Shown here one piece after another: positions 10,382 through 39,819 of a stretch of 56,384 bases of DNA. Under the pieces are notes generated by a model. It had not been told where the DNA came from, made no database searches, and saw nothing but the letters and a program-made list of their open reading frames with translations. This stretch comes from Phycisphaerae bacterium (GTDB taxonomy: Bacteria > Planctomycetota > Phycisphaerae > Tepidisphaerales > Tepidisphaeraceae). The first letter of the stretch is position 1; every line of letters starts with the position of its first letter. Both the position numbers and the translations under genes were made by a program. The stretch covers positions 1 through 56,384 of the forward strand of contig JAICIO010000034.1 of NCBI GenBank assembly GCA_025924315.1, written 5' to 3'.

Positions 10382-12583
10382 ATGGCGAACCTCCTCGAGC
10401 ATCTGGTTCTGGATCGCACCGGCCCGGCGACGGCTACGATCGGCATGATCAGCCTGCCGCTGCCGCGCGAACTTTCCGGCAATATTTGTCTCGATGCGGA
10501 TACCACCGGCATGCAACCGGTCGCGTGGTGGAAGCGTCAGGAACAACCCCGGCGCGTGATGGCATTCGTCGTCGATGACAAAGGCGTTCCGCCGCAGCTG
10601 CATCTCGTTCAATCGAAGAAGTCAACCACGAGCACGACATCGAAATGGAAATGCGAAACGCGCATCACGCTCGAGCGCCTGGATTTCGTTCCGCACAAGT
10701 TTCAAAACATCGAGGCGCTGCGCGGCGTGCCCGCAAAGGATTGCACGACGGTTGAATCCGATCTGCACCTCACGTTTCGCGATCGGCGCATCGCGCTGCA
10801 ATTCGGCGCGACGGGACCAAAAGGCGGGCCCTATTACTGGCAGAACGTGCAGATCGATCGCCTCTGGCAGAACGACGCCGCCGAAGCGGTCCGCGTCGGC
10901 GGGGTGATGTACAACGAGGACACGTACCTCTGGGCCGACGTGTACTTTCTCCTTTTCGCCAACGGCGTCGCTCACGTCGCCGCCCATTTCGTCAACACGA
11001 AGCTGCACATCAAAGGCTATGACTTTCAAGGTCTGCCGGTCATTCGCTTCGCGTCGGACTCGCTGAACAAAATCGACGCGAGCTTTCCGAAAGACGGAAC
11101 GATGTTCGACGTCGGCGGATTTAAACTCAATCTCGCCGACAGCGCCCATATGGCGAGCGAAAAGGAGCCGGGTTCGCTCAAGTCCGACGGCAAGGAACTG
11201 TTCTGGAAACCGGTCAGTCGCACGTTCAATCCGCAGCTCGAAGACGCCCCGCCGATGGAATGGCCCGTCGGTTTTGCGCGCACGTTCCGATTTCAATTCA
11301 GCCTGAGCAAGGCGGAGCCAGTCATCGCGCGGTATCGCGCTCCGAATTGGTGGTACACGACCTGCGGCGAACCGTGGGTCGATGGATATCTTCCCGTGCA
11401 CGGCGAATACGATCGCGTCGGTGAATTCACAAGCAACTACATTCGCTCGCTGATGAAGCGCGGCCGCTTCGACGCGCCGCAGGCAGACCTCGGCAATGAC
11501 GGCGACGCCGGCGGTGGGATGCTCAAGAATTACTATCACACCGGTTGCCCGGATTGTTACGACGATGCGCTGAACTACTGCTACTACTGGGCAGACATCG
11601 CCGTCGATCACACGGACTTCACCGTTCACCAATGGTTCGGCGGATGGGGCTGGAAAACCTGCGCCTACACGCGCTTCCGCGATGTTCTCTACGGTTATCT
11701 CGAAACCGGCGATCCGTATCTGCTCGACACCGCCGAGATGGTTTCCGAAGCCTACTGGGCGTGGTTCCGCAGCAACTGGCCCCGCTGCACGATCGGCCGC
11801 GATGCGTACGAATTCGCGGGTTGGGCGATGCTCTGGCGCACGCAGCGCACCGAGCATGCGCGCGAACGGTCGCGAGAATTAATTCGCATGCTGTGTCAGG
11901 TCCTCGACACGCGCGGAATGGTTGGTGGGCAAATCGGCGCCGGCCCGCATCCGGGCTATCACTCGTCGCTCTACATGACCGGCGTATGCATTCTGAGTTT
12001 TCTCGACGTCGCCGAGGCGGAGATCGAAGAGGGCAACCGCGAGCGCGTCGCGGCGATGCTTCCGTACATCATCAAGATGGAAGATCGCTTCAGCCGAACG
12101 GACGTCGAGCTTTTCCCCAGCGAATACGGCATGGGCGCCAAAGGCATCAGTCCCAGCGGGCATGCAACCAAAGCCGCAATGTCGATGCGGATCTACACGC
12201 AGCTGGCGCGGATTTATCCGAGTGAACTTGAACGCTGTCGCCGTGGGCTTGCGACGATCGCACCCCAAGTCCCCGCGACGCTCGAAGAATACGGCCGCAC
12301 CGGTCGCGTCACCAATAACCTCGAGCCACCGCTCTATCACGACGCGCTGCTGCTTGGCGCGAAAATCAACGGCGACGGAATCACGCTTTCTCCGATCGTC
12401 GAACCCGCGCAATTGCCGAATCAGCAGGTCGTCAGCACACCATTCGGCGCATTGACGATCAATAAGTCACTAGATGGCAACCAAACGAAATTCACGTTCG
12501 AAGCGCAGTCGAAATTTCCGGTCGAATTGCACATCAGCGACCGCGCGTTCAAGAGTGACAGTCAGAGCACGGCTACAATCTAG
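10382..12583 (+). CDS. Putative carbohydrate-active protein: beta-sandwich plus helical toroid
   Basis: 733 residues without a clear signal peptide. The first ~310 residues are beta-rich (ISLPLPRELSGNICLDAD, YYWQNVQIDRLW, MYNEDTYLWADVYFLLF). The region from ~320 to ~640 reads as alpha-hairpins, with aromatic-rich motifs such as NWWYTTCGEPWVDG, CPDCYDDALNYCYYWADIAVDH and HQWFGGWGWKTCAY. The C-terminal ~80 residues return to beta. This order (beta-sandwich, alpha/alpha toroid, beta cap) is common in six-hairpin glycosidases and polysaccharide lyases. No family was recognised with confidence and catalytic residues are not assigned. The neighbouring carbohydrate genes support a sugar-related role, but this is inference. 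Confidence 0.8.
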   Translation: MANLLEHLVLDRTGPATATIGMISLPLPRELSGNICLDADTTGMQPVAWWKRQEQPRRVMAFVVDDKGVPPQLHLVQSKKSTTSTTSKWKCETRITLERLDFVPHKFQNIEALRGVPAKDCTTVESDLHLTFRDRRIALQFGATGPKGGPYYWQNVQIDRLWQNDAAEAVRVGGVMYNEDTYLWADVYFLLFANGVAHVAAHFVNTKLHIKGYDFQGLPVIRFASDSLNKIDASFPKDGTMFDVGGFKLNLADSAHMASEKEPGSLKSDGKELFWKPVSRTFNPQLEDAPPMEWPVGFARTFRFQFSLSKAEPVIARYRAPNWWYTTCGEPWVDGYLPVHGEYDRVGEFTSNYIRSLMKRGRFDAPQADLGNDGDAGGGMLKNYYHTGCPDCYDDALNYCYYWADIAVDHTDFTVHQWFGGWGWKTCAYTRFRDVLYGYLETGDPYLLDTAEMVSEAYWAWFRSNWPRCTIGRDAYEFAGWAMLWRTQRTEHARERSRELIRMLCQVLDTRGMVGGQIGAGPHPGYHSSLYMTGVCILSFLDVAEAEIEEGNRERVAAMLPYIIKMEDRFSRTDVELFPSEYGMGAKGISPSGHATKAAMSMRIYTQLARIYPSELERCRRGLATIAPQVPATLEEYGRTGRVTNNLEPPLYHDALLLGAKINGDGITLSPIVEPAQLPNQQVVSTPFGALTINKSLDGNQTKFTFEAQSKFPVELHISDRAFKSDSQSTATI

Positions 12584-31279: not shown

Positions 31280-31287
31280 CGTACGCA

Positions 31288-31371
31288 GAAGTCAGGAGCC
31301 AGAAGCCAGGAGCCAGAAGTAAGGCGGTGACCGCGCCCTTCTGGCTTCTGGCTACTGGCTACTGGCTTCTT
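31288..31371. repeat. Heptamer hairpin, GCCAGAA/GCCAGTA type, copy 1
   Basis: The left arm GAGCCAGAAGCCAGGAGCC and the right arm CTTCTGGCTTCTGGCTACTGG are iterated heptamers complementary to each other, around a GC-rich centre. It fills the gap between ptsH and ptsI. A second member is at 39708-39819. Confidence 0.9.
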
Positions 31372-31660: not shown

Positions 31661-31737
31661 GAACAGTTGTCAGTTTTCAGTTGGCAGTTGTCAGTGCAGG
31701 CCCTACTACCAACTGACAACTGGCAACTGACAACTAC
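31661..31737. repeat. Heptamer hairpin, TTGTCAG type
   Basis: Left arm: four heptamers TTGTCAG-TTTTCAG-TTGGCAG-TTGTCAG. Right arm: complementary AACTGACAACTGGCAACTG words. The short centre is GTGCAGGCCCTACTACC. It fills the gap between ptsN and ptsH and ends at the stop codon of the upstream gene. Confidence 0.9.
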
Positions 31738-32251: not shown

Positions 32252-32563
32252 TCATTTCTCCACTTCCGGATGTTTCCGATTGCGGATCTTCTTCTTGTGA
32301 TCGCTCAACTGCCGCTCGAGCTTGTCGACGCACTGATCGATGCACGCATACGCGTCGCCTTCGTCATGATGGGCGATGAACATGTTCTTGTGCTCAGCGT
32401 TCACGATCATTTCCACTTTCGTGCGATCCTTCGCCGCGTCCAGGACCACTTCGATCTCCTGAATGCGATCGTAATATTTCGTGAGTTTGTTGGCCTTCTG
32501 TTCAGCGTAGGTCTTAAGCGGCGGTGTGACATCCATGTGGCGAGAAGAGACGACGACGTTCAT
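32252..32563 (-). CDS. hpf: Ribosome hibernation promoting factor (short HPF / YfiA family)
   Basis: 103 residues with the HPF/RaiA fold: opening MNVVVSSRHMDVTPPLKTYAEQ, central TKVEMIVNAEHK, helix GDAYACIDQCVDKLERQL and a basic end (DHKKKIRNRKHP). The length fits a short HPF without the dimerisation domain. It binds the 30S decoding centre in stationary phase. A clear Shine-Dalgarno (GGAAGGAG) precedes the ATG at 32563. It heads the cluster hpf-ptsN-ptsH-ptsI-RNase E/G, whose promoter should be in the gene-free region 32564-33258. A TACAAT -10-like box at 32618-32623 (minus strand) fits, but no good -35 is visible. Confidence 0.95.
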   Translation of the reverse strand: MNVVVSSRHMDVTPPLKTYAEQKANKLTKYYDRIQEIEVVLDAAKDRTKVEMIVNAEHKNMFIAHHDEGDAYACIDQCVDKLERQLSDHKKKIRNRKHPEVEK

Positions 32564-32589
32564 TTGTACTCCTTCCGTACGAACCAATT

Positions 32590-32890
32590 TGACCCCTCGA
32601 CATCATTCGCACGGAACATTGTACAGGAAACCGCTTCCGTAAGCCGCGCCGCAAAATGCATCCAGGCACACGCGATTTGGACACCAGTGGAGTGTAAGGA
32701 CTTGCTCACCCCGCTGCCAGCGAGGTGACTCTGTAGACGCCGTCGCTTACTTCGGCGGTCGACGGCGCCGGGTTGCCTTGATTCGGGTTGGGGCATAGAG
32801 CCCAGCTGATTCCCCAAAATATTCTGAATGCCACCTTTTCCATCCCCCTGCAGCCTTAAACAGGCGAGGAAATCCAAGTCCGAGAAAAAG
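32590..32890 (-). other. Gene-free hpf leader region with RNA-like structure
   Basis: There is no supported gene. Read on the minus strand it contains a perfect stem CGCCGTCG...CGACGGCG with a 14-nt loop (near 32736-32767), and GGGCTCTATGCCCC as a further short hairpin. It lies 5' of hpf and could be an untranslated leader or an independent structured RNA. No known RNA family was recognised. Confidence 0.35.
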
Positions 32891-32957
32891 GAAGTTGCCG
32901 AGCAGGTTTAGGCTGTGCGTGCGCGGGAGTGGTTTGTTCGCGCGCGTTTTTCTCGCC

Positions 32958-33083
32958 CACACGCGCGTGAACGGATCAAAAACGCGCGTGAACGACTCGT
33001 ACACGCGCGTGAATGACTCGTACACGCGCGTGAATGACTCGTACACGCGCGTGAATGACTCGTACACGCGCGTGAATGACCCG
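32958..33083. repeat. Six 21-bp tandem units with phased CACGCGCGTG palindromes
   Basis: Six consecutive 21-bp units, the inner four nearly identical, each containing the self-complementary 10-mer CACGCGCGTG (AACGCGCGTG in unit 2) followed by AATGACTCGTA or a variant. Spacing of exactly 21 bp puts all palindrome centres on one face of the helix. The array lies in the gene-free space between hpf (minus) and the SLBB protein gene (plus). Because 21 is divisible by three it is open in several frames, but no coding signal supports translation. Confidence 0.92.
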
Positions 33084-33258
33084 TAATCGCGCCCGATTTC
33101 CGCAACACCATCGCCGTTTCGGTCATCGCAGAACATTTGCACAACTCCCCCCGCTCGCGGCATAATCGCGGGGACCGGATGGGGCTTTCACCAAATGGGG
33201 CCGGATGATTGGGCGATTGTGTCCTGCCTCGTTTGGTTCACCCGCGCGAGGAGGCCAC

Positions 33259-34026
33259 ATGGGTCTATTACGGATAACCATTAAGTCCACTGCCGTGGGA
33301 CTGCTTCTGCTGTTCTGCCCGCTGCCCGAATTGTCGTACCTCAATCCCATGGCGCGTGCAGCTGTTCCGACGACATCATCCACAACTCAGCCCACACAAG
33401 GATCAGAGGCTCGTTCGGCATTCAGTTATTACGTGACGGGACACGTTCGGCGAAGCGGCGTGTTTGAGGCGAAACACGCAATGACGCTGAAAGACGCGAT
33501 CAAGCGCGCTGGCATTGAGCCTGGCAGATGGTACGTGCACACAGCAAGGATGAGCGGAAACGGAAAAGGGACGATTTCGTATGAAGTGTGGCTTCAGGAG
33601 GTCATGAAGCCAGGCTCGCCGAAAAACGAAGAAGTACTCCCAGAGGATGAGATTTATGTGACTGAGAACCCCTTTCCACGAACACCGGCGATTCTGCGCA
33701 GGGTACATATCACGGGTGACGCGCCGACCACCGGGGACATCAAGCTCGAAAATGAAACGTCGCTCACCGCGCGTCGGGCAGCCCTCGAAGTTGCCGGCGT
33801 GCAAGAGTCAGAGGCAGCGCTCTGGAATATCGTAATTCAGGAGAAGACAGCAGACGGCGGACACCTACGGATCGATCGAGCGCTGAAAGATATCATTAGC
33901 GGCGAGCTCAGCGATGTGTCCCTCCAGCCGGACGATGTAGTGGAGATTCGCAAATTGCCGACCACGCGGGAGGCCGAGGTGAAATCTGATCCTAAGGCAC
34001 CTCAAACGAATGATCATCACCACTGA
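33259..34026 (+). CDS. Exported SLBB-domain protein
   Basis: 255 residues with an N-terminal signal/anchor (TAVGLLLLFCPLPELSYL) and a TTSSTTQPTQ linker. Two SLBB-like beta-grasp units follow: FSYYVTGHVRRSGVFEAKH...TLKDAIKRAGI, and ILRRVHITGDAPTTGDIKLEN...TARRAALEVAGV. Each is followed by a strand ending in an EDEIYV or PDDVVEI motif, as in polysaccharide export (Wza-type) proteins. The usual Poly_export N-domain is absent, so a direct export-channel role is doubtful. GAGGAGG lies 5 nt before the ATG. The stop overlaps the next gene by 17 nt. Confidence 0.78.
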   Translation: MGLLRITIKSTAVGLLLLFCPLPELSYLNPMARAAVPTTSSTTQPTQGSEARSAFSYYVTGHVRRSGVFEAKHAMTLKDAIKRAGIEPGRWYVHTARMSGNGKGTISYEVWLQEVMKPGSPKNEEVLPEDEIYVTENPFPRTPAILRRVHITGDAPTTGDIKLENETSLTARRAALEVAGVQESEAALWNIVIQEKTADGGHLRIDRALKDIISGELSDVSLQPDDVVEIRKLPTTREAEVKSDPKAPQTNDHHH

Positions 34027-34561
34027 TCAGCCCGAGAGCCGCAACAATCCGATTCCGATGCCCTTTATTCGCAGCGGGCGCCGCCGCCTGATCGCATGGA
34101 CAGGTCTGCTCGCGTTTTGCGTCGTCGGCTTCGTCTGGACCGCCAATCTCTATCGGCGTTCTCATGCGGACATTCGCGCGTTCCACACGGGCGACGTCAG
34201 TGTGATAGGTTCCCAAGGTGAATTGGACACAGCGCCGCAGTATGTCGTGCTCACGGTGTCCCAGGGAAGTTTCGTTCTCTATCGTTACCGTGAAGAGCAA
34301 CTCGTCGATGAGAATCATCGCTTCGTCCAATGGATCCTGTCGGTCGACACTTTAGCCCGCGCGCCCATTTGGTTGATTCTGATCAGCTGGCTCGCTCTCT
34401 TAACGCTCGTCGGCTGGCGAGTGCGTCTCGTGCTTCGCTCCCGAGCTTCGCGCCAAACCGGGCGTTGCATGCAGTGCGGCTACGACCTCCGCGCCACGCC
34501 GGAGCGATGCCCGGAATGCGGGACGGCGAGGGTGGCGGAGTCTGTTGGCAATGGCCAATGA
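34010..34561 (+). CDS. Membrane protein with C-terminal zinc ribbon
   Basis: 183 residues. Two membrane helices (LIAWTGLLAFCVVGFVW and APIWLILISWLALLTLVGW) flank a ~75-residue extracytoplasmic region. The C-terminus is the planctomycete-type zinc ribbon CMQCGYDLRATPERCPECG. The TGA stop (34559-34561) and the last residues (GNGQ) come from the start of a CCAATGA heptamer repeat. It overlaps the SLBB gene by 17 nt, suggesting translational coupling. Function unknown. An alternative start is the ATG at 34058. Confidence 0.72.
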   Translation: MIITTDQPESRNNPIPMPFIRSGRRRLIAWTGLLAFCVVGFVWTANLYRRSHADIRAFHTGDVSVIGSQGELDTAPQYVVLTVSQGSFVLYRYREEQLVDENHRFVQWILSVDTLARAPIWLILISWLALLTLVGWRVRLVLRSRASRQTGRCMQCGYDLRATPERCPECGTARVAESVGNGQ

Positions 34562-34715
34562 CCAAGTGCCAATGACCAATCAAATCCCAATGTCCAAATG
34601 TCTCAATGAATGCACAGGCCGGCGCGCGAACCTTTGATCATTGGTGCATTGGCGCTTCGTTGGTCATTGGTGCTTAGGTCATTGATTGGTCATTGGTGCT
34701 TGGTCATTGGCCCTT
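34553..34715. repeat. Heptamer hairpin, CCAATGA type
   Basis: The left arm repeats CCAATGA-like heptamers (AATGGCCAATGACCAAGTGC...) and the right arm repeats the complement TTGGTCA (GTTGGTCATTGGTGC). The centre is about 25 nt. It begins inside the coding sequence of the upstream gene and supplies its stop codon. Confidence 0.9.
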
Positions 34716-34796
34716 CCACGCCCGGTCGTCTCGACAAGAGGAGGCCGAATCATCAACATGAGCGACGTGGGCTGACTGATCCTTAGAGACAAAACC

Positions 34797-35645
34797 ATGA
34801 AGAATGATTCAATTCCGCGGCGGGGTTTTTTGGCGTCGGTGGTTTCGGCGGGGTTGGCGGGGTCGGCTCTTAGCCGATGGGTTTTGGCTGACGAGGAGAA
34901 GCCGACCAAGGAGGGGTTTGTTTCGATCTTTGATGGGAAGACGCTCGAGGGGTGGCACACGAACAGGCAGAAGATCGGGCATGGCACGGGCGGGAGGTGG
35001 GAGGTGGAGGATGGGGCCATCACCGGGCGGCAGGAGCCGCTGGGCAATGGCGGGATGCTGATGACGGACCAGGCATATGGGGATTTTGAGCTGCGGCTGG
35101 AACTGAAGCCGGACTGGGGCATCGACAGCGGCGTGTTCCTGCGGACCAATGAACAAGGGGTGTGTTTCCAGGTGTACGTCGACTACCACGATCACGGGAA
35201 CGTCGGATGGATTTCGACGGAGGCGACCGGCGGCGACAAGCGGATGATCATTCGCCCGTTCAACATTTTCGGGAAGCTGAACGAGCAGGGAGAGCTGAAG
35301 AGTTTGACGACAAAGCCCGACGAGCGGCCCGTCGCGTGGAAGCCGGATTATCTGCTCTATAGCGCGACCGCGGACGAGTGGTTGAAGGCGTGGAAGATCG
35401 GCGAGTGGAATGCGCTTCGCGTGCGCTGCGTGGGCGAGTATCCGCGGATCACCACGTGGATCAACGACGTGAAGATGGCCGACTTCGACGGCGCGACATC
35501 GCCGCAGCCGGATTACAACAAGGATGAGATGAAAGAGAAACTCGGGCGCAAGGGGCCGATTGCGTTCCAGGTGCATGGCGGTGTGAGGCAATGGAACAAA
35601 GGCGCGAAGTGCAGGTGGAGGAATGTTCGGGTTAAGACGATTTAG
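34797..35645 (+). CDS. Tat-exported DUF1080 (3-keto-disaccharide hydrolase-like) protein
   Basis: 282 residues. The N-terminus carries a twin-arginine signal (PRRGFLASVVSAGLAGSAL). The mature protein is a single concanavalin-like DUF1080 domain: FVSIFDGKTLEGWH, WEVEDGAITGR, YGDFELRLELKP, SGVFLRTN, then the long NALRVRCVGEYPRITTWINDVKMADF and CRWRNVRVK. The family is abundant in planctomycetes and includes 3-keto-glycoside hydrolases. This fits the ThuA/Gfo-Idh-MocA protein elsewhere in the window. Secreted or periplasmic. Confidence 0.9.
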   Translation: MKNDSIPRRGFLASVVSAGLAGSALSRWVLADEEKPTKEGFVSIFDGKTLEGWHTNRQKIGHGTGGRWEVEDGAITGRQEPLGNGGMLMTDQAYGDFELRLELKPDWGIDSGVFLRTNEQGVCFQVYVDYHDHGNVGWISTEATGGDKRMIIRPFNIFGKLNEQGELKSLTTKPDERPVAWKPDYLLYSATADEWLKAWKIGEWNALRVRCVGEYPRITTWINDVKMADFDGATSPQPDYNKDEMKEKLGRKGPIAFQVHGGVRQWNKGAKCRWRNVRVKTI

Positions 35646-35689
35646 TGTATAGCCACCGGTGACGAAGTAGAGGCAATGTTGGGAGTGCG

Positions 35690-36031
35690 ATGACGAGGCA
35701 GCCGATTGACTATCACGCACCGGTTCCGATGCCGCGTCGCAATGCTGCAGCGATGGGGATCGGAATTGTGGTCGTGGTTGTGATTGCCGTGAACACCTAC
35801 TTGCTTCTCGTCGGCAACGCAGTCACGGGATTGGGTGCAATCGTGTACCTCTTTCCTCTGAACATCGTTGCGAACAGTGCACTGCTTCTCGCAGCAGTGT
35901 TCTGCACGTTCATCGTCATGGGTCGCTGCTCGCGCGGGTGGTTGATCGCCTACATAGTCATTTCGGTTGCGCTGCCCCTCGCCGCGATCGTCGCGAACTT
36001 GACAGTGCTTTCATCGATGCGGGCTTATTAG
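35690..36031 (+). CDS. Small three-helix membrane protein
   Basis: 113 residues with three hydrophobic segments (MGIGIVVVVVIAVNTYLLLV, IVYLFPLNIVANSALLLAAV, WLIAYIVISVALPLAAIVA). No family recognised. GGGAG lies about 10 nt before the ATG. It stands between the DUF1080 gene and the convergent DUF502 gene. Confidence 0.65.
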   Translation: MTRQPIDYHAPVPMPRRNAAAMGIGIVVVVVIAVNTYLLLVGNAVTGLGAIVYLFPLNIVANSALLLAAVFCTFIVMGRCSRGWLIAYIVISVALPLAAIVANLTVLSSMRAY

Positions 36032-36089
36032 CGTCGATCGAAGACTTTATGACGGGACCAGTTCATGAGACGAGAAAACGTCGGTCGGG

Positions 36090-36821
36090 TTAGAGCGTTG
36101 TCGCGCTTTCGGGCAACGATGCGCGGTCGAGCGGGTTGATTACCCCGCCGCTCACAAGGAGGCGCATCGCTTCTTCTACTGTGAGCGGGAGTTCGACGAC
36201 GGATTCTCGCGGGACGACGAGGACGTATCCGCTGAAGGCGGTCGGCGACGACGGGACGAAGACGGAGATCATTTCGCTGCCCGTCGCGTCCTGCAGCGGA
36301 CGTAATCCCGCGCCGGTGACCAGCCCGATCGACCAGATGTTGCTCGTATGCGGTTGAACAGCGACGACGCGGCTGAATTGGAGTTGGGCGCGCTCCTGCA
36401 AAAGAAAATCGGTCACTTGTTTCACGGCGGGGTAGATCGCGCGGATGATCGGGATCTTCATCGCCAGCTTTTCGCCGACGCGCCAGAAAGTTCGGCCGAT
36501 CAAGTTACCCACGAAGAGCCCGACGACATACACGAGCACGATCGCGAGCGTCACGCCGATCAGCTGCTTAAACCATTCCGGCGTGCGGATCTCCCACATG
36601 CGGTTGACGTTGCCCCACTGCGCATCCGGCCCGCCGAGGTTGTACTGCGCGTACTTCACCAGCCAGATGAGGTGCACGCCGAGCGAGTTCCACAGGAAAT
36701 TCCAGACCCAGATGAGCAGCCAGAGCGTGATGAGCGTTGGCAGAAGCGCCGCGAGGCCGCGCTGAAAGAATCGGCGGAAGTCTTCCGAGAAGCTCACTCG
36801 CTCTCGCGGCTTCGATGTCAA
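36090..36821 (-). CDS. DUF502 family inner-membrane protein
   Basis: 243 residues with two membrane helices: LAALLPTLITLWLLIWVWNF near the N-terminus and LIGVTLAIVLVYVVGLFVGNLIG. The conserved cytoplasmic part has KIPIIRAIYPAVKQVTDFL, VVAVQPHTSNIWSIGLVTG and VFVPSSPTAFSGYVLVVPRESVVELPLTVEEAM, the DUF502 signature. No ATG fits, so the gene begins at TTG 36821 or a downstream GTG. It lies 18 nt after the large TPR gene and probably shares its mRNA. DUF502 function is unknown; membrane stress or envelope roles have been suggested for relatives. Confidence 0.85.
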   Translation of the reverse strand: MTSKPRERVSFSEDFRRFFQRGLAALLPTLITLWLLIWVWNFLWNSLGVHLIWLVKYAQYNLGGPDAQWGNVNRMWEIRTPEWFKQLIGVTLAIVLVYVVGLFVGNLIGRTFWRVGEKLAMKIPIIRAIYPAVKQVTDFLLQERAQLQFSRVVAVQPHTSNIWSIGLVTGAGLRPLQDATGSEMISVFVPSSPTAFSGYVLVVPRESVVELPLTVEEAMRLLVSGGVINPLDRASLPESATTL

Positions 36822-39707: not shown

Positions 39708-39819
39708 AAGAAGCCAGTAGCCAGTAGCCAGTAGCCAGTAGCCAGTAGCCAGAAGCCAGAAGCCAGAAGCCAGAAAAAATTCGCGCTACTGGCTTCTGGC
39801 TTCTGGCTCCTGGCTTCTC
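39708..39819. repeat. Heptamer hairpin, GCCAGTA/GCCAGAA type, copy 2
   Basis: The left arm has nine or so heptamers (GCCAGTA x5, then GCCAGAA x3-4) and the right arm is the complement CTACTGGCTTCTGGCTTC. The right arm is read through as the 3' end of the upstream gene and gives its stop. Confidence 0.92.

Follow-up and report, generated by a model that had tools for sequence, protein, structure and literature searches.

What is a tandem array of 21-bp units, each carrying a self-complementary decamer, doing in the gap between two divergent genes of a planctomycete? The window (the whole stretch of 56,384 nucleotides that was analyzed) contains such an array as its top-scoring tandem repeat (32959-33092; period 21, 6.4 copies, 91% matches, 0% indels, score 198 by Tandem Repeats Finder). 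A preliminary description had read it as six helically phased sites for a cooperative dimer-binding protein, of the kind found in iterons, operator arrays, or parS-like centers. The six units of exactly 21 bp are present, one base away from where they had been placed, and are flanked by decayed copies.

32917 to 32958, no strand assigned: two decayed left units, 13/21 (32917) and 11/21 (32938) identical, 21-bp phase kept
32959 to 33084, no strand assigned: six good 21-bp units, consensus ACACGCGCGTGAATGACTCGT, the central three identical
33085 to 33105, no strand assigned: decayed right unit, 11/21 identical

The decamer starts at 32960, 32981, 33002, 33023, 33044, and 33065 and reads CACGCGCGTG in five good units; the second unit has AACGCGCGTG, the variant that had already been remarked on. 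Good units 3 to 5 are identical, while unit 6 differs from the consensus by one change, unit 2 by two, and unit 1 by five. Good and decayed copies together span about 32917-33105, all in 21-bp phase, with zero indels across some nine units, decayed ones included. Compared in a rotated frame, left flank and unit agree at 15/21 positions, which equals the maximum of 300 shuffles. The decayed right unit, read directly, contains an inverted repeat that differs from the decamer (AATCG-CGCC-CGATT), centered 22 bp past the last decamer. An inverted unit at the left edge, hinted at by the predicted fold, was rejected because direct in-phase copies match equally well or better. A CRISPR was rejected as well, since the spacers are themselves repeated and none is unique. 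With its indel-free period, the array falls within the two-helical-turn group (21 to 22 bp) defined in this analysis.

The genes around the array were compared with those of relatives. The array lies in the intergenic gap between the hpf-PTS cluster and the SLBB gene, as first described, with divergent hpf (minus strand, start at 32563) and SLBB (plus strand) genes on its two sides.

32252 to 32563, minus strand: hpf (ribosome hibernation promoting factor), which opens the hpf-PTS cluster and lies across the array from the SLBB gene
33205 to 34026, plus strand: SLBB-domain protein gene; the start at 33205 is suggested by the module described below, and 33260 is also possible
36090 to 36821, minus strand: DUF502 gene, with homologues directly upstream of hpf in most family relatives
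32564 to 36089, no strand assigned: segment that separates DUF502 from hpf here and is missing in relatives; it contains the array and four plus-strand open reading frames (ORFs)

The DUF502-hpf segment of the window, about 3.5 kb, is lineage specific. The array was absent upstream of hpf in 23/23 family genomes inspected, and these relatives lack the whole segment, not the array alone. Since most relatives have a DUF502 homologue directly upstream of hpf, with the array-bearing DNA absent, the array is not an ancestral control element of hpf. The SLBB gene was found in 0/100 relatives, and a search of 100 relatives for DNA similar to the array's intergenic region gave a single 27-base match. 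A conserved binding function, judged by presence of the array at the same locus in relatives, is therefore not borne out. The search of related genomes for similar arrays likewise offered no help to that claim: with three mismatches allowed, 21-bp arrays resembling the core occurred in 4 other genomes of 397 in the class, with different sequences, and the exact three-copy core occurred in 1 other genome of 392 in the phylum, at a spacing of 16 bp. Within its own genome (6.57 Mb), the window unit forms no second array. At C54:3290, that genome has about three 21-bp units in a degenerate array, and the extended consensus has no clear sites beyond scattered matches with 2 to 3 mismatches.

The neighbors tested were hpf, the PTS genes, SLBB, a 3-keto-disaccharide hydrolase, and DUF502. 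No replication-initiator, partition (parA/parB or equivalent), or phage gene was among them, which leaves the iteron and parS readings unsupported. An Rfam scan of the window gave no match. Paired heptamer tandem repeats in inverted orientation occupy gaps between hpf-PTS genes of the window (31286-31370 and 31664-31735). Four other family genomes (L041, L046, L048, and L052) have heptamer repeats with different sequences in gaps at about the same positions (about 460-545 and 833-929 of those loci); the place of the hpf-PTS heptamers is kept and their sequence replaced. Elsewhere in the window, a nine-copy AGCCAGT heptamer array (39712-39773, 98% matching) is followed by another heptamer array at 39785-39818.

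Between the array and the SLBB gene lies a short element that recurs in the genome.

33127 to 33209, plus strand: candidate promoter-leader module, with 91-94% identical copies at four other genome sites
33137 to 33166, plus strand: -35/-10-like TTGCAC ... CATAAT within the module, with its -35 located 52 bp beyond the end of the six good units

The other copies are at 33692-33768 and 34358-34439 of contig C19 and at 10968-11046 and 11594-11673 of contig C87 of the window genome (G000). All five copies keep a -35-like stretch (TTTGCACAAC, TTTGGACAAC, or TTTAGACAAC) and GCGGCATAATCGC, vary between these, and have an ATG after them; they stand before unrelated genes. From this pattern, we read the module as a credible candidate for a promoter with leader and start codon. 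At a C19 copy, one reading frame starts with MIDQLEPRRMLS, on a protein with delta-60 repeats; this start resembles the planctomycete LEPR N-terminal motif. A small protein encoded at 34010-34561 of the window has a zinc-ribbon-like tail, CGYDLRATPERCPECG, which is also encoded near the C87 module copies (L322, about 2840-2910).

The position of the array relative to this module bears on its possible role as an operator or upstream activator. A putative dimeric regulator would bind each CACGCGCGTG, placing six dimers cooperatively on one face of the DNA, and would control the SLBB promoter and perhaps hpf. The exact 21-bp phasing, the location between divergent genes, with the -35 of a recurring promoter module about 50 bp downstream, and a core that is less mutated than the spacer all suit such an array. 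Against it, the array is a singleton in a genome poor in further sites, it is missing in relatives, the changes in its palindrome are uncompensated, and no array precedes the four other module copies in the stretches that were read. We therefore doubt the operator reading. What survives of the original proposal is the phasing and a site upstream of a credible promoter, which leave room for an operator or upstream-activator role; what counts against it is the lack of the array at hpf in relatives and the weakness of the palindrome.

That weakness appeared when conservation was compared within the unit. Across the six good units, 1/60 decamer positions and 7/66 spacer positions were mismatched (Fisher P = 0.064), with the spacer changes mostly in the terminal unit. 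Adding the decayed units at 32938 and 33085 gave 7/80 versus 21/88 (P = 0.012). The best-conserved 10-bp frames were ACGCGCGTGA and CGCGCGTGAA, not exactly the palindrome. Thus, the idea that the palindrome is the best-conserved part of the unit held for a core less mutated than the spacer once decayed units were counted, but not for the good units alone, and not for the palindrome as the top frame. Departures from the consensus within the decamer break its symmetry. There were 0 compensated palindrome changes in the window array, and paired cells were fewer than the shuffle mean. A palindrome as long as that of the unit arose in about 6% of same-composition shuffled units (P = 0.06). The array itself is far beyond chance; its palindrome is not strongly so.

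Compensatory changes were seen in two comparison arrays, L069 and L024, in contrast with the window array. In L069 (Prevotellaceae), five ACGCGCGT units are followed by six ATGCGCAT units in one 22-bp register; this array has diverging spacers and covarying arms (18 compensated cells versus 8.0 in shuffles, reached by 0/5000). L024, from a genome of the window's own family (G021, one of the four class genomes with 21-bp arrays), is a palindromic 21-bp array with 8 compensated cells versus 2.8 in shuffles, again reached by 0/5000. Other arrays, L163 among them, showed no covariation. L085 has three adjacent arrays of three different palindromes, at 22 to 23 bp. By direct reading, the 41- to 42-bp units of L281 and L299 each hold a pair of unlike inverted repeats, spaced by about 21 bp. 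Long near-perfect inverted repeats (17 to 22 bp) recur every 40 to 42 bp at L281 13738-14020, L299 15531-15632, and L268 6765-7058, in Odoribacteraceae, Parabacteroides, and Tannerella drafts. At L289 4285-4525, the palindromes seem to be built from two interchangeable half-sites (GGGGCAT and GGGTTAT), and some units are reverse complements of others.

The self-complementarity of the array could instead act in a single strand, as RNA or as an extruded DNA hairpin or cruciform. The plus-strand RNA fold was predicted at -93.2 kcal/mol versus -63.9 for shuffles (z = -7.5), and the minus-strand DNA fold had a z of -6.2. The BrickBuilt repeats of Porphyromonas gingivalis, with their predicted self-complementary structure, also speak for this reading. 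A tandem array of any palindromic unit would fold likewise, however, and compensatory changes are missing here too. The array also lies upstream of the predicted SLBB promoter and would hence fall outside the SLBB transcript. A structured nucleic acid is accordingly unlikely.

The sequence of the core raises a further alternative, in which a Z-DNA-prone element would take up negative supercoiling between divergent promoters. By direct reading, purines and pyrimidines alternate over 13 bp of the central units (GTACACGCGCGTG), and the flanking genes are divergent. But many arrays of the same spacing have no alternating core, for example, GATGTAAGCTTACATC (L085) and TATCTTTAGcCTAAAGATA (Parabacteroides), and we regard this explanation as very unlikely.

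Because 21 bp is seven codons, the array might also encode a heptapeptide repeat, either in the minus-strand ORF at 32747-33163 (138 codons, SFTRVYE repeats) or in the plus-strand ORF at 32895-33086, both frames being open. Open frames on both strands are expected from any stop-free 21-bp repeat, though. The minus-strand ORF had no Pfam or NCBIfam match, the intergenic DNA of the array is not conserved, and the periods of 22 and 41 bp seen elsewhere are not multiples of three. That either ORF is a real protein is highly improbable.

To compare spacing across bacteria, 84,980 species genomes were scanned for ACGCGCGT in three copies spaced 16 to 28 bp apart, which returned at least 118 stretches. 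Among the matches listed, spacings of 21 bp (37 matches) and 22 bp (37 matches, many of them from Saccharothrix) were the commonest; a spacing of 20 bp occurred once, 23 bp twice, and each other spacing at most 7 times. When each lineage was given one vote, 24/47 loci with printed titles among the matches listed fell at 21 to 22 bp (P of about 1e-8 versus an even spread). Among these lineage votes, again for the matches listed, 22 was prominent within the set of spacings indivisible by three (P = 0.0002), as was 21 within the divisible set (P = 0.0008); the votes are a hand tally from titles, and many of the arrays lie inside ORFs of uncertain reality. Core arrays of ACGCGCGT at the same spacing thus recur in unrelated phyla. 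The two-turn phasing pointed out at the outset is real and, surprisingly, common across bacteria.

Arrays of any sequence were then counted in genomes found by the core scan, which were sampled at their first contigs, blind to arrays. In eight Bacteroidota-type draft genomes (0.45 Mb), 35/42 arrays with periods of 14 to 60 bp fell at 20 to 23 or 40 to 43 bp. The units of these 35 arrays were more palindromic than shuffles as a set (Fisher P = 0.0007), though only 8/35 were so individually. The peak was absent from the other four genomes, that of the window included (1.15 Mb sampled), and 0.8 Mb of the window genome had no genome-wide excess of two- or four-turn arrays. The eight-versus-four split was made after the spectra were seen, and all genomes but that of the window had been selected for one core array, so the contrast describes these genomes and does not amount to a test. 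The idea that every two-turn array has its own regulator gene next to it was rejected: twenty neighboring proteins were scanned and had no common family. Nor was a viral origin accepted; the pattern occurred on one viral contig, at 27-bp spacing.

These data are suggestive of a preference for two-turn periods in bacterial arrays at large. A still broader possibility, which we put forward tentatively and below even expectation, is a general rule, as yet undescribed, under which bacterial intergenic tandem arrays form or persist with periods of two (or four) helical turns. Each step would often carry a palindrome, of any sequence that keeps it self-complementary, and the array in the window would be a young and isolated example from a planctomycete. 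Behind such a rule could stand an architectural protein that binds one face without sequence specificity, or else a mechanism of duplication tied to helical phase. Simple slippage offers no evident reason for 21 to 22 and 41 to 42 bp over 25 to 39 bp, the preference that one bacterial genome set shows. Literature searches of open papers returned no description of a two-turn period preference. What sets the period of bacterial minisatellites is now a directly testable question. By itself, the array is a local curiosity whose position ahead of a promoter can be tested; the wider pattern is of greater consequence.

On balance, we lean toward the array being a lineage-specific intergenic minisatellite, probably young. 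A 21-bp stretch with an alternating purine-pyrimidine, CG-rich core would have been duplicated head to tail; slippage or unequal exchange may then have kept the middle copies alike while the outer copies decayed, presumably with no essential site-specific binding partner. The exact two-turn length probably follows the unexplained 21- to 22-bp preference across bacteria and not operator design for the SLBB gene. Support for the minisatellite comes from central units that are identical and outer units that are decayed in phase; from an array that is single in its genome and absent at hpf in relatives, next to a gene found in no relative; and from uncompensated palindrome changes, the other module copies without an array, and a palindrome that is weak against shuffles. 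Other observations argue against it. With decayed units counted, the CGCGCG core has fewer mutations than the spacer, about nine units are free of indels, and a binding array would fit a site ahead of a credible promoter. Unrelated bacteria also have arrays of this core at this spacing, for which a neutral repeat would need a bias in repeat origin.

Plasmid iterons and centromere arrays are direct repeats near two helical turns that are bound on one face. The window array is unlike them in its place beside hpf and PTS genes, with neither an initiator nor a partition gene among the neighbors tested. It is closer to the arrays of Tannerella, Odoribacteraceae, Parabacteroides, Prevotellaceae, Saccharothrix, and others, which share a period of 21 to 22 bp, are often intergenic, and often have the ACGCGCGT core or another palindrome. 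Several of those genomes have many arrays with different palindromes, unlike the window genome. The closest known counterparts of the two-turn arrays are the 22-, 23-, and 41-nt direct repeats of Porphyromonas gingivalis (PMC4596501). Its BrickBuilt and 464/PgRS elements consist of 23-nt and 41-nt tandem direct repeats; 22-nt repeats are also noted in strain W83, and some BrickBuilt elements have promoter activity (PMC4596501). BrickBuilt elements are multicopy and have a leader, a tail, and terminal inverted repeats, whereas the window array is single, lacks these parts, and is in another phylum; a BrickBuilt-type MITE was rejected for it, as the dispersed flank copies are the promoter module without arrays. 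Like the BrickBuilt and 464/PgRS elements, the window array is intergenic and head to tail, has a period of about two helical turns (two or four in P. gingivalis), and has a predicted self-complementary structure.
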